Of a stretch of 60,560 nucleotides of DNA, positions 32,382 through 35,535 are shown in pieces. Source of the DNA: a bacterium (GTDB taxonomy: Bacteria; Bacteroidota; Bacteroidia; B-17B0; Aurantibacillaceae); the NCBI GenBank assembly GCA_029945625.1, contig JAQSCW010000049.1:1-60560 (forward strand), in the 5' to 3' direction. The stretch's first letter is position 1. Every line of letters starts with the position of its first letter. Position numbers and translations under genes: made by a program. The notes under the pieces were generated by a model. The model was not told where the DNA came from, did no database searches, and saw only the letters and a program-made list of their open reading frames with translations.

Positions 32382-33278
32382 ATGGAATGGAATCATCAAC
32401 AATTTCCCCCCGTGGATCAGGTGGGAATTCAGGAACGGGTGGCGCGTTTTATCACCCGAAGTCTTAAAAAGGAAACGAAGTCAAAGGCCCTTCGCCTCGC
32501 TCTAAGCATGATCGATCTTACTACCTTGGAGGGGAAGGACACTCCCGGTAAAATCGAACAGGTATGTCATAAAGCCCTTCACCCCTGTGATGATATTCAG
32601 GGATTGCCTTTAGTAGCGGCGGTTTGCGTGTACCCTATTTATGTGTCAACAGCTAAAAAATGTTTGGAAAACAGTTCGGTAAAAGTAGCTTCGGTTGCCA
32701 CCGGTTTTCCCAGTGGCAATGTGCCACTGAATTTAAAAATAGAGGAGACCCTTTACGCGGTGGATCATGGTGCCGATGAAATTGACATGGTAATTAGTCG
32801 TGGCGAATTTTTAATAGGCAATTACAATTTTGTTTATGATGAAATTGCGGCTATTAAAGCGGCTTGTGGAGCGGCGCGATTAAAAGTGATCCTGGAAACA
32901 GGAGAATTGTCAACCCTAGACAATGTGAGAAAAGCCAGTGAACTAGCTATTGCTGCCGGCGCCGATTTTATTAAAACCTCTACCGGAAAAATACAACCTG
33001 CCGCCACCATGCCTGTTACGTTGGTGATGCTGGAAACCATCAAAGATCATTTTTTAAGAACGAATCGCCTTGTTGGGATGAAACCCGCGGGTGGAATATC
33101 CACTTCAAAAGTGGCCTTACAGTATTTGGTGATGCTGCATGAAACACTCGGCGAGCGCTGGATGACAAACGAATGGTTTCGATTTGGGGCGAGCAGTCTG
33201 GCAAATGACATCGTTTTGCAATTGGGAAAAGAACGAAGAGGAGTGTACTTTAGTAAGAATTATGTGAGTAGTGATTAG
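32382..33278 (+). CDS. deoC: Deoxyribose-phosphate aldolase
   Basis: The 298-residue TIM-barrel protein has the DeoC signatures: SMIDLTTLEG, VASVATGFPSG, DEIDMVISRGEF, Schiff-base Lys198 in GADFIKTSTGK and Lys234 in VGMKPAGGI. It cleaves 2-deoxyribose-5-phosphate to glyceraldehyde-3-phosphate and acetaldehyde in deoxynucleoside catabolism. It is about 40 residues longer at the N-terminus than E. coli DeoC, as in other Bacteroidota and eukaryotic forms. An aldehyde dehydrogenase that could handle the acetaldehyde lies downstream, separated by the GxxExxY unit. Confidence 0.95.
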   Translation: MEWNHQQFPPVDQVGIQERVARFITRSLKKETKSKALRLALSMIDLTTLEGKDTPGKIEQVCHKALHPCDDIQGLPLVAAVCVYPIYVSTAKKCLENSSVKVASVATGFPSGNVPLNLKIEETLYAVDHGADEIDMVISRGEFLIGNYNFVYDEIAAIKAACGAARLKVILETGELSTLDNVRKASELAIAAGADFIKTSTGKIQPAATMPVTLVMLETIKDHFLRTNRLVGMKPAGGISTSKVALQYLVMLHETLGERWMTNEWFRFGASSLANDIVLQLGKERRGVYFSKNYVSSD

Positions 33279-33335: not shown

Positions 33336-33370
33336 ATGGCCGCAGATTTCGCAGATTACACAGAATTAAT
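33336..33370 (+). repeat. Left inverted repeat of the GxxExxY unit
   Basis: The stretch contains CCGCAGATTTCGCAGATTAC. Its inverted counterpart is at 33991-34024; CAGATTTCGCAGATT is shared exactly and the flanks match with a few changes. It lies 20 bases before the GxxExxY start. Confidence 0.8.
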
Positions 33371-33390
33371 ATCCGACTTAATAAAAATCA

Positions 33391-33831
33391 ATGCTTATGG
33401 ACAAAATTTTTGATGATGAAAACCGTATTGTCAGTGAAGAATTTGGAGAATACGGAACCAGAGAAATCAACGCATTGACTCATACAATTATTGGGTCTTC
33501 AATGGAGGTATATAATACGATAGGAAGAGGATTTTTGGAATCTGTTTACAAGGATTGTTTGTGTTTGGAGTTCGAAAAAAGGAAAATAAAATATCAGAAA
33601 GAGAAACAATACAATATTTGCTACAAAGGAGTACAGATTCCTCATCACTATTTTGCAGATTTCTTGGTAGAAGAAAAAATTATACTTGAAGTTAAGGCAC
33701 AAAATTCTGTCATAGCTGAAAATCACAAACAAATAATCAACTATTTGGCTGTTTCAGGATGCAAAATCGGTTTACTAATAAATTTCGGTGAAAGTTCACT
33801 AAAATACAAACGATTTATTTTAACTAAATGA
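33391..33831 (+). CDS. GxxExxY family protein (PD-(D/E)XK nuclease-like, PF13366 type)
   Basis: The 146-residue protein has the name-giving GFLESVY (GxxExxY) near residue 48 and a PD-(D/E)XK core: Asp in HHYFADFLVEEKI, then ILEVKAQ about twelve residues on, with VIAENHKQIINYLAVSGCKIGLLINFG as the C-terminal part. The family is small, patchily distributed and of unknown function. It is often found beside 'cgcagatttcgcagattacacag' repeats (from memory). Here it is framed by inverted repeats of just that type, between deoC and an aldehyde dehydrogenase. A nuclease role in its own movement is possible but untested. Confidence 0.9.
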   Translation: MLMDKIFDDENRIVSEEFGEYGTREINALTHTIIGSSMEVYNTIGRGFLESVYKDCLCLEFEKRKIKYQKEKQYNICYKGVQIPHHYFADFLVEEKIILEVKAQNSVIAENHKQIINYLAVSGCKIGLLINFGESSLKYKRFILTK

Positions 33832-33990
33832 ATAAAGTTAAGACAAGTAGCGGGCAACAGGGTTTTTCAAAGTCTACCTTCTATTTCCTTTTTTGGATTG
33901 TAAAATCTGAGAAATCATCCACAATTAATTTTGGTGACCGATATGTTAAAGAATACTCAATTTGCAACACGTAATCTTATTACTTGATGA

Positions 33991-34024
33991 AATAAATCTG
34001 CGAAATCTGCGAAATCTGTGGCAT
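33991..34024 (-). repeat. Right inverted repeat of the GxxExxY unit
   Basis: Read on the minus strand the stretch gives CCACAGATTTCGCAGATTTC and aligns with the left repeat at 33336-33370 over about 34 bases with few mismatches. It contains the direct repeat CTGCGAAAT twice. It starts 159 bases after the GxxExxY stop, and 65 bases separate it from the next gene. Confidence 0.8.
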
Positions 34025-34089: not shown

Positions 34090-35535
34090 ATGAAAAATAA
34101 TTTTGAATGGAAATACTCTCCCGCCCCTGAGTCAACCGAGCACATCAAGATCGATCCGCGATACGATTTGTTCATTAATGGAAAATTTGTAAAGCCGCTG
34201 AGTAAAACATATTTTGAAACCAGTGATCCCGCTACCGGCAAAATGTTGGCCAGTATGGCTCATGCGAACGAAAAGGATGTAAATACCGCGGTGCTGGCGG
34301 CAAAAACGGCGTATGACAAAACCTGGAAAAAAATGCCGGGCAAAGAACGCGGTAAATATATTTTCAGGATCGCCCGCATGATCCAAGAGAGAGCCCGCGA
34401 GTTTGCGATTATTGAATCGTTAAACGGCGGAAAACCCATTCGCGAAAGTCGCGATTTCGATATTCCTTTAGCGGCGAATCATTTTTCTTATTATGCCGGC
34501 TGGGCCGATAAACTGGATTATGCTTTTCCAAACAGAACTCCTAAATCGCTGGGAGTAGTGGGACAAATTATTCCCTGGAATTTCCCATTATTAATGGCGG
34601 CATGGAAAATTGCACCGGCACTTGCAACCGGCAATACTGTGGTGTTGAAACCGGCCGAAACCACCTCTCTTACTGCGCTTAAATTAGCAGAATTGATTCG
34701 CGATTGCGACCTTCCTCCGGGAGTCGTAAATATTGTAACCGGCTTTGGTAATACCGGCGCAGCACTCGTCAACCACTCCTTGGTAAACAAAATTGCATTT
34801 ACAGGAAGTACCGGAGTGGGGAAACTTATTCAAAAATCCATTGCCGGAACCTCGAAGAAATTAAGTTTGGAATTAGGTGGAAAAGGGGCTCATCTTGTGT
34901 TTGACGATGCTCCCATTAATCAAGCAGTAGAGGGAATTGTGAATGGCATTTTTTTTAATCAGGGTCATGTGTGTTGTGCCGGCTCACGTTTGTATGTGCA
35001 GGAAAATGTCGCGTCCGAGGTAATTACCAAATTGAAGGCCCGGATGCAAACACTGATTGTGGGAGATCCTTTGGATAAGAATACCGATATAGGGGCCATT
35101 AACAGCGAAGGTCAATTGAAGAAAATTAAAGATTATATTCAGTTGGGAAAAAATGAAGGTCTTGAAATTTATCAACCCGAGTGTGGAATTCCTACAAAAG
35201 GCTTTTTTTGCAAACCCACTTTAATTATTGGCGCAGGTCAAAGCAGTCGTCTCGTGCAGGAAGAGATTTTTGGGCCTGTACTAAGTATTCAAACATTTAG
35301 AACCATTGAAGAAGTGATAGAAAAGGCCAATCAGGTACCTTATGGATTAAGCGCCGGGGTATGGACAGACAAAGGCTCCAAAATTTTTAATTTAACTTCT
35401 AAGTTAAGGGCGGGGGTAATTTGGGCCAATACCTATAATAAGTTTGATCCTACTTCCCCTTTTGGCGGTTATAAAGAAAGTGGATTTGGACGTGAAGGGG
35501 GATTACATGGTTTACAGCCCTATCTTTCATTTTGA
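34090..35535 (+). CDS. NAD(P)+-dependent aldehyde dehydrogenase
   Basis: The 481-residue protein carries the classical ALDH motifs: IIPWNFPLLM with Asn164, KPAETTSLTAL, FTGSTGVGKLI, ELGGKG with Glu261, and NQGHVCCAGSR with catalytic Cys295. The ending GGYKESGFGREGG is also typical. Proteins of this type often accompany deoC and oxidise acetaldehyde from deoxyribose breakdown; the deoC gene here is upstream on the same strand. A GTG at 34069 is in frame, but the ATG at 34090 is preferred. Its TGA overlaps the TTG start of the next gene. Confidence 0.93.
   Translation: MKNNFEWKYSPAPESTEHIKIDPRYDLFINGKFVKPLSKTYFETSDPATGKMLASMAHANEKDVNTAVLAAKTAYDKTWKKMPGKERGKYIFRIARMIQERAREFAIIESLNGGKPIRESRDFDIPLAANHFSYYAGWADKLDYAFPNRTPKSLGVVGQIIPWNFPLLMAAWKIAPALATGNTVVLKPAETTSLTALKLAELIRDCDLPPGVVNIVTGFGNTGAALVNHSLVNKIAFTGSTGVGKLIQKSIAGTSKKLSLELGGKGAHLVFDDAPINQAVEGIVNGIFFNQGHVCCAGSRLYVQENVASEVITKLKARMQTLIVGDPLDKNTDIGAINSEGQLKKIKDYIQLGKNEGLEIYQPECGIPTKGFFCKPTLIIGAGQSSRLVQEEIFGPVLSIQTFRTIEEVIEKANQVPYGLSAGVWTDKGSKIFNLTSKLRAGVIWANTYNKFDPTSPFGGYKESGFGREGGLHGLQPYLSF

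Follow-up and report, generated by a model that had tools for sequence, protein, structure and literature searches.

Introduction

Nucleases of the RecB/Cas4 type within the PD-(D/E)XK group combine an aspartate, an E-x-K motif and a QxxxY motif in one fold, and the Cas4 proteins are recognised by conserved cysteines for an Fe-S cluster. To our knowledge, no function has been agreed upon for the GxxExxY family; the papers found that name the family mention it, in the passages concerned, only in passing, and the literature searched for the family or for the repeat strings held no description of the system reported here. A partnership of an enzyme with short repeats is described in passages of two papers on the REPIN-RAYT systems (PMC3116915, PMC8049555): a chromosomal and largely vertically inherited enzyme gene lies beside its own repeats, these repeats form short inverted doublets that fold into hairpins with compensatory changes and occur between genes as non-autonomous copies, and several such enzyme-repeat pairs may be present in one genome. 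A small open reading frame between inverted repeats is also seen in the 23S rRNA intervening sequences with an S23 gene; a passage on the Coxiella intervening sequence reports a terminal 28-bp stem and excision by RNase III (PMC4990558).

Results

The repeat-bounded GxxExxY gene between deoC and the aldehyde dehydrogenase gene

The gene studied here lies in a 60,560-nt stretch of bacterial DNA (the whole stretch analysed, called the window). The features of the locus are as follows.

32382-33278, plus strand: deoC, left neighbour outside the element (PF01791 DeoC-family aldolase, 66.3 bits)
33336-34024, no strand: the whole repeat-bounded unit
33339-33368, plus strand: left inverted arm, three units of about 9 nt, CGCAGATTT CGCAGATTA CACAGAATT
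33391-33831, plus strand: GxxExxY gene, 146 amino acids, PD-(D/E)XK nuclease family (TIGR04256, PF13366)
33993-34022, minus strand: right inverted arm, three units, in minus-strand reading CACAGATTT CGCAGATTT CGCAGATTT
34090-35535, plus strand: aldehyde dehydrogenase (ALDH) gene, right neighbour outside the element (PF00171, 518 bits)

The original prediction that inverted repeats frame the GxxExxY gene was confirmed, and the 15-nt exact core and 34-nt span given there are close to the values obtained by us, namely two 30-nt arms that are complementary at 87% and share CGCAGATTTCGCAGATT as an exact core of 17 nt. The predicted position of the unit between deoC and an ALDH gene likewise agrees with the Pfam matches of the two neighbours. 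Each arm consists of three copies of a degenerate 9-mer (approximately), CRCAGATTN. When up to three mismatches were allowed, CGCAGATTNCGCAGATT matched four times in the window, always in the arms of the GxxExxY gene (expected 0.39; none of 100 shuffles reached four), and in the whole of its own genome the arm motif (up to two mismatches) gave 27 matches against 0 for the reversed control. A unit-like stretch inside the gene (33650-33663, encoding YFADF) was considered as a candidate target and judged a coincidence.

The protein is a predicted nuclease of the RecB/Cas4 type

The TIGR04256 profile matches the open reading frame with 139.2 bits (cut-off 35) over profile positions 2-116 of 116. 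The motifs of the window protein are G47xxE50xxY53, D90, E100xK102 and Q114xxxY118; in an alignment of 60 sequences G47 and K102 were invariant, and E50, D90, E100, Q114 and Y118 were present in at least 90%. The structure model (pLDDT 90.4, pTM 0.80) had its best fold match in SSO0001, which we take to be a Cas4 protein (E 5.6e-5, Z 9.7, TM-score about 0.5, rmsd 5.2 over 103), followed by weaker matches (E above 0.001, Z at most 7.7) to RecE, to lambda and related exonucleases and to many endonucleases of the fold. Judged by its residues and by the modelled fold, the window protein is a predicted PD-(D/E)XK nuclease of the RecB/Cas4 type. It shares with Cas4 and the RecB-like nucleases the core fold and the order of the E, D, ExK and QxxxY motifs, but it is smaller and has no conserved Fe-S cysteines: among the nearly invariant columns of the 60 GxxExxY sequences none was a cysteine column, which rules out Cas4 membership. 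Searches with PADLOC gave weak Cas4 similarity at most and those against PHROGs weak matches at most, while sequence searches of the PDB returned no relative, weak matches to S100 proteins being taken as chance.

The enzyme also separates the locus from the REPIN-RAYT systems. Since PF13366 is the sole Pfam match of the protein (128 bits) and the fold is restriction-endonuclease-like, it is not a RAYT, and assignment to that group was rejected; the enzyme is of the Cas4/RecB kind and not a Y1 HUH tyrosine transposase.

Inverted repeats flank many GxxExxY genes across the family

GxxExxY matches were found in 35 of 40 genomes of the genus, with up to nine per genome, and they exceeded the TIGR04256 cut-off in 33 of the 40. 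The flanks were scored by the best inverted match between the upstream and the downstream side, with a threshold of 30. In the genus set, which holds 105 loci of about 111 GxxExxY places, 44 of 105 reached the threshold, against 1 of 105 after shuffling, 8 of 315 when the partners were swapped and 11 of 507 other genes taken from 40 stretches of the same genus, 39 of them 20 kb long. A second, named set of 80 loci from many phyla contained 74 with enough flank; here 39 of 74 reached the threshold, while the shuffled flanks gave 0 of 74 and the swapped ones 12 of 218. These 39 loci span 12 phyla (named as in the records, many of which are MAGs), among which one is archaeal and contributes one locus. 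Thus the view that the gene and the inverted repeats belong together was upheld, and, as in the REPIN-RAYT systems, the gene of the window and the loci at threshold in both sets are flanked by their own repeat type. The expectation that each GxxExxY gene would be flanked by repeats held only in part, as the threshold was missed by 61 of 105 loci in the genus set and by 35 of 74 in the named set; some of the genus loci below it still had one or two units.

Direct repeats scored high as well, in 10 of 105 genus and 23 of 74 named loci. Since each flank can hold whole palindromes, this direct-orientation control is contaminated by real repeats, and the shuffles, the swapped partners and the other genes were used as nulls. 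The gene-bearing copies are found mostly at conserved sites: the 105 genus loci collapse to 37 sites, 23 of which have at least one member at threshold. The sites were grouped by single linkage of flank matches; the largest group (16) contains members of two protein clades, and distinct sites may have been merged in it.

The repeat unit follows the protein clade

The arm types share a common grammar, [CT]RC-xyA-z, often headed by A[A/G]CCAC, and the unit words read were CRCAGAT, CACGAAT, CACTAAT, CRCAAAG, CACATAG, CACTAAG, CACAGAG and CACGGAG. Unlike in the REPIN-RAYT systems, where a single REP is the building block, each GxxExxY arm is built as an array of a 7-9 nt unit, whose letter code is linked to the protein clade. 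Within 250 nt of the genes, 898 units of the genus set were oriented on the arm strand and 339 on the opposite one; the corresponding values for the named set were 730 and 514. The code rests on the loci with a readable unit, 73 of 105 in the genus set and 45 of 80 in the named set; in the other 32 and 35 loci none could be read.

In the protein tree of the genus the last letter of the unit needs two changes among 65 labelled rows, many of which are orthologous. The tree across phyla comprises 70 sites, 44 from the named set and 26 from the genus, most of which are separate; in 68 the last letter is G or T, and here three changes are sufficient, as compared with a minimum of 13 and a mean of 18.3 in 300 shuffles. 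Where it is readable, the unit type follows the protein clade across phyla. Exceptions are the loci L243 and L111, neither of which has a matching residue switch. Residues 117, 133 and 136 are among the strongest differences between the G and T clades, a contrast that is confounded with descent. A variant word, CATATAAG, is present in the arms of two GxxExxY genes that are nearest relatives, those of genomes G019 (L407) and G030 (L121); the G019 gene groups with the ATAG clade, with L121 as its nearest member.

The same junction in related genomes

Of the 30 loci fetched from the same genus, 26 contained deoC as well as the ALDH gene, and a GxxExxY match lay between the two in four of these 26: L032 (the window's own), L033, L040 and L059, the last with a split gene containing a stop. 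In L041 the junction is a deletion relic: the middle has been lost, and what is left are the two arms with the final codons of the gene. The gene was also found at the junction in L047, where the contig begins inside the junction, and in G016 (L124), and a fragment is left in G022 (L161). Counted by genome, the gene with the same repeat type is at the junction in G010, G011, G016 and G029, a degenerate copy in G002 and a relic in G022 and G032. The junction of L039 holds a palindrome without a gene, built of another unit (TACGAAT), that of L051 a small palindrome (by eye), and no unit array was seen by eye in the remaining junction loci. An uninterrupted deoC-ALDH junction, for which the original prediction had advised to look, is present in many relatives.

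Other contents were noticed at this junction. In G008 (L046:2937-3653, minus strand) a different insert of 0.9 kb carries a 238-codon open reading frame with a P-loop, GPNGSGKSS, which appears zeta-toxin-like by eye only. In L047 and L040 the arms are multiplied, with two or three modules per side (by eye), which suggests that copies of the element accrete beside the gene.

On the deoC and ALDH tree the presence of GxxExxY is scattered and needs seven changes, its clustering being no better than that of shuffled labels; L054, L055 and L057 were scored as lacking the gene, but there is no deoC in these loci, which makes them uninformative. The scattered presence fits an old residence with repeated loss, and repeated gain at one junction would be compatible with it as well. 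Since the same gene and repeat type occupy the junction in congeners and degenerate copies or relics are left in others, the copy of the window looks old, and it is most likely an inherited resident which has been lost or has decayed repeatedly, not a fresh insertion. Thus the idea of a nuclease-carrying element that recently moved into the locus found no support and was rejected. Nor do all relatives carry the gene at this place, an outcome that had been named as a refutation of the prediction: several have it there, and others have lost it or keep a decayed copy.

Gene-less palindromes and their tie to a matching gene

In the genome of the window AGAT palindromes are present away from any copy of the gene. 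Dimers of the AAAG unit were found there 32 times against 4 in the control, and the excess was weak for ATAG (7 against 4). Within the genus, exact AGAT dimers were detected in 14 of 40 genomes and exact ATAG dimers in 22 of 40, and their presence went with that of the matching gene. Where an ATAG-clade gene is present, ATAG dimers were found in 18 of 21 genomes, and where it is not, in 4 of 19 (Fisher 7.9e-5); AGAT dimers were found in 7 of 8 genomes with the gene or a relic at the deoC site and in 7 of 32 without (p 0.0012); these tests treat related genomes as independent. The three ATAG genomes missed were G016, with no exact dimer, and G019 and G030, where the variant word lies beside the gene; dimers with no detected matching gene were those of G024, G026, G027 and G031. 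In G029 the AGAT gene is present and no exact AGAT dimer was found.

The carriers keep matches more than 3 kb from any GxxExxY gene (7 of 7 AGAT and 16 of 16 ATAG carriers among those listed, by a hand count in which G014 and G018 were not listed), thus the presence link is not made by the gene's own arms. The cross-pairing controls gave weaker links that were only on the border of a null result, with Fisher values of 0.054 and 0.096 and a Mann-Whitney value of 0.017 in one case, so that shared ancestry explains part of the link. Reversed-pattern controls gave 0-1 matches per strand and genome, as compared with dozens of real matches in several genomes. The original prediction had held that repeats occurring equally often without the gene would speak against it. 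That repeats occur without the gene is literally the case, but this proved to belong to the system, as the gene-less palindromes are numerous and their presence goes with the matching GxxExxY gene.

The ATAG family is best seen in G003, which has 85 ATAG matches and 4 GxxExxY matches. In 20 copies chosen for paired arms the outer arms were largely invariant, and an inner stem of at least 7 was present in 17 of 20 with differing sequence (mean 9.3 against 4.96 shuffled). The gene-bearing element on contig C14 of this genome is made up of arm, open reading frame and arm alone, 468 bp in all.

Two further observations concern single genomes. Beside the ATAG-clade GxxExxY gene on contig C30 of the window's genome (L003:300-1070) there are repeats of about 320 bp in direct order; each of them combines a CACATAG arm with an inner hairpin (by eye). 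In G014 there were zero AGAT dimers (up to one mismatch), the near relatives G003 and G031 having 53 and 69.

Presence and absence of elements at orthologous sites

A 270-kb region of G003 contains six palindromes, none of which overlaps an open reading frame of at least 100 amino acids, and in this the elements resemble the dispersed inverted doublets that lie between genes in the REPIN-RAYT systems. In the corresponding collinear region of G014, 273 kb at 85% identity, there are none, and shuffles gave 0-1. All six element sites were located in G014 without an array, and at the 725260 site a short terminator-like hairpin is found instead. The element at position 671980 of contig C7 of G003 has an identical counterpart in G031 but none in G014, G032 or G013, consistent with a single gain in the line of G003 and G031; in G009, G010, G021 and G024 the site is occupied by 0.6-4 kb of other DNA and is uninformative. 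Since the intergenic DNA at the six G003/G014 sites has diverged, neither a target-site duplication, which together with a related full-length insertion sequence would mark a MITE of a DDE insertion sequence, nor the exact sequence before insertion was readable there. The site neighbouring 671980 holds terminator-like hairpins in G010 and G013. The elements may favour or target terminators, mimic them, or decay and collapse into them. Short GCC..GGC terminator-like hairpins were noticed in L347, in L344 and on contig C7 of G014 near 161,200, where G003 has an element.

These sites bear on the possibility that the nuclease is a homing-type passenger, which we regard as unlikely. The palindromic arrays, perhaps terminators spread by another enzyme, would have come first, and the nuclease gene would land in palindromes of the right unit and would not move them. 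The excess of gene-less palindromes over genes in G003, the hairpins at element sites in G010, G013 and G014 (the 725260 site) and the elements of genomes with no detected matching gene are what such a history would leave behind; however, the presence of the elements tracks the clade of the matching gene, and unit and protein clade co-vary across phyla.

Comparison with the S23 intervening sequences

Among the control genes of the flank survey, the one with the highest score and a second near the top proved to be S23 / 23S-IVP genes (L283:3288-3689, minus strand, and L262:10227-10622, plus strand). A set of such genes (PF05635) was scored in the same genus (loci L377-L406; 30 fetched, one cut, 29 scored), and 9 of 29 reached a score of 30 against 0 of 29 shuffled, with other units. 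Two unrelated small proteins, GxxExxY and S23, share the inverted-array anatomy, and the S23 loci are possibly a second system of the same kind. The window locus resembles the 23S rRNA intervening sequences in having a small open reading frame between inverted repeats, but the protein is unrelated, the repeat units are different and the locus is not in rRNA; as it lies between deoC and the ALDH gene and the window gave nothing at the gathering threshold against Rfam, an intervening sequence is ruled out.

The shared plan could mean that the arms act in RNA, the gene being placed in the loop of a long stem as the S23 genes are, with processing by RNase III, and that the spread is incidental. 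We consider this quite unlikely. The stem and RNase III excision of the Coxiella sequence, the anatomy of the PF05635 four-helix-bundle genes and the inner hairpins of G003, which keep their pairing despite differing sequence, would all be in line with it, but the GxxExxY loci lie outside rRNA, none of the 8 sources searched gave an Rfam match at the gathering threshold, the protein model is best matched by a Cas4-type DNA nuclease, and a sequence code between clade and repeat is unexpected if stem formation alone matters.

That GxxExxY is an ordinary chromosomal gene with selected regulatory or terminator repeats at a fixed place, the dispersed repeats being due to chance or composition, is highly improbable: the conservation of gene-bearing sites across congeners would agree with it, but it is already disfavoured by the shuffled DNA (0 or 1 elements; shuffled flanks 1 of 105 and 0 of 74), by the reversed-pattern controls (0-1 against dozens of real matches in several genomes) and by the presence and absence of elements at orthologous sites.

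Discussion

It seems rather likely to us that GxxExxY serves a family of miniature palindromic elements as their dedicated nuclease, in a system that is REPIN-RAYT-like in its working and has an unrelated enzyme; nuclease and palindromes together are probably a family of miniature mobile DNA driven by the nuclease. The proposal starts from the association of gene and repeats, the orientation of the units, their code, the correlated presence, the polymorphism at orthologous sites and the stability of the gene, all of which were observed directly. GxxExxY would recognise inverted arrays of the short unit [CT]RC-xyA-z (CRCAGATTN in the window) and would bind the palindrome at these units in a single-stranded or extruded, cruciform form. 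The PD-(D/E)XK centre, of Cas4/RecB type, may then cut the bound palindrome, which would feed a copy step, or an excision and reinsertion step, carried out with host repair, by which a copy would be inserted into intergenic DNA. A resident nuclease gene would in this way maintain a population of non-autonomous palindromes in trans.

Mobilisation of the palindromes by the nuclease is what we infer, and the evidence for action in trans is the presence correlation; no cleavage, excision or insertion event was observed among the compared genomes. The gene-bearing copies hardly move, and autonomous mobility was not seen across the compared loci. The original prediction had suggested that GxxExxY proteins serve as their own mobility nuclease. 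The part that stands is a nuclease with its own repeats; the rest is better restated as a nuclease that may act on dispersed palindromes, its own flanks included.

A bolder statement is put forward tentatively, as one that falls a little short of an even chance: a lone Cas4-like nuclease of about 140 residues would read a modular DNA word and drive the spread of palindromes in bacteria and in at least one archaeal genome, with no transposase, integrase or HUH enzyme, and with a code that can be read from the sequence (last letter G or T according to the clade, residues 117, 133 and 136 being the candidates).

Once GxxExxY is linked to a defined DNA substrate, the function of this widespread family becomes directly testable, and the letter code linking protein clade and unit is a natural dataset for learning how a minimal nuclease recognises DNA. 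If the nuclease does move or maintain the palindromes, a large class of intergenic repeats in bacteria, undescribed in the literature searched, would gain its engine, and biology of the REPIN-RAYT kind would have arisen more than once with unrelated enzymes.
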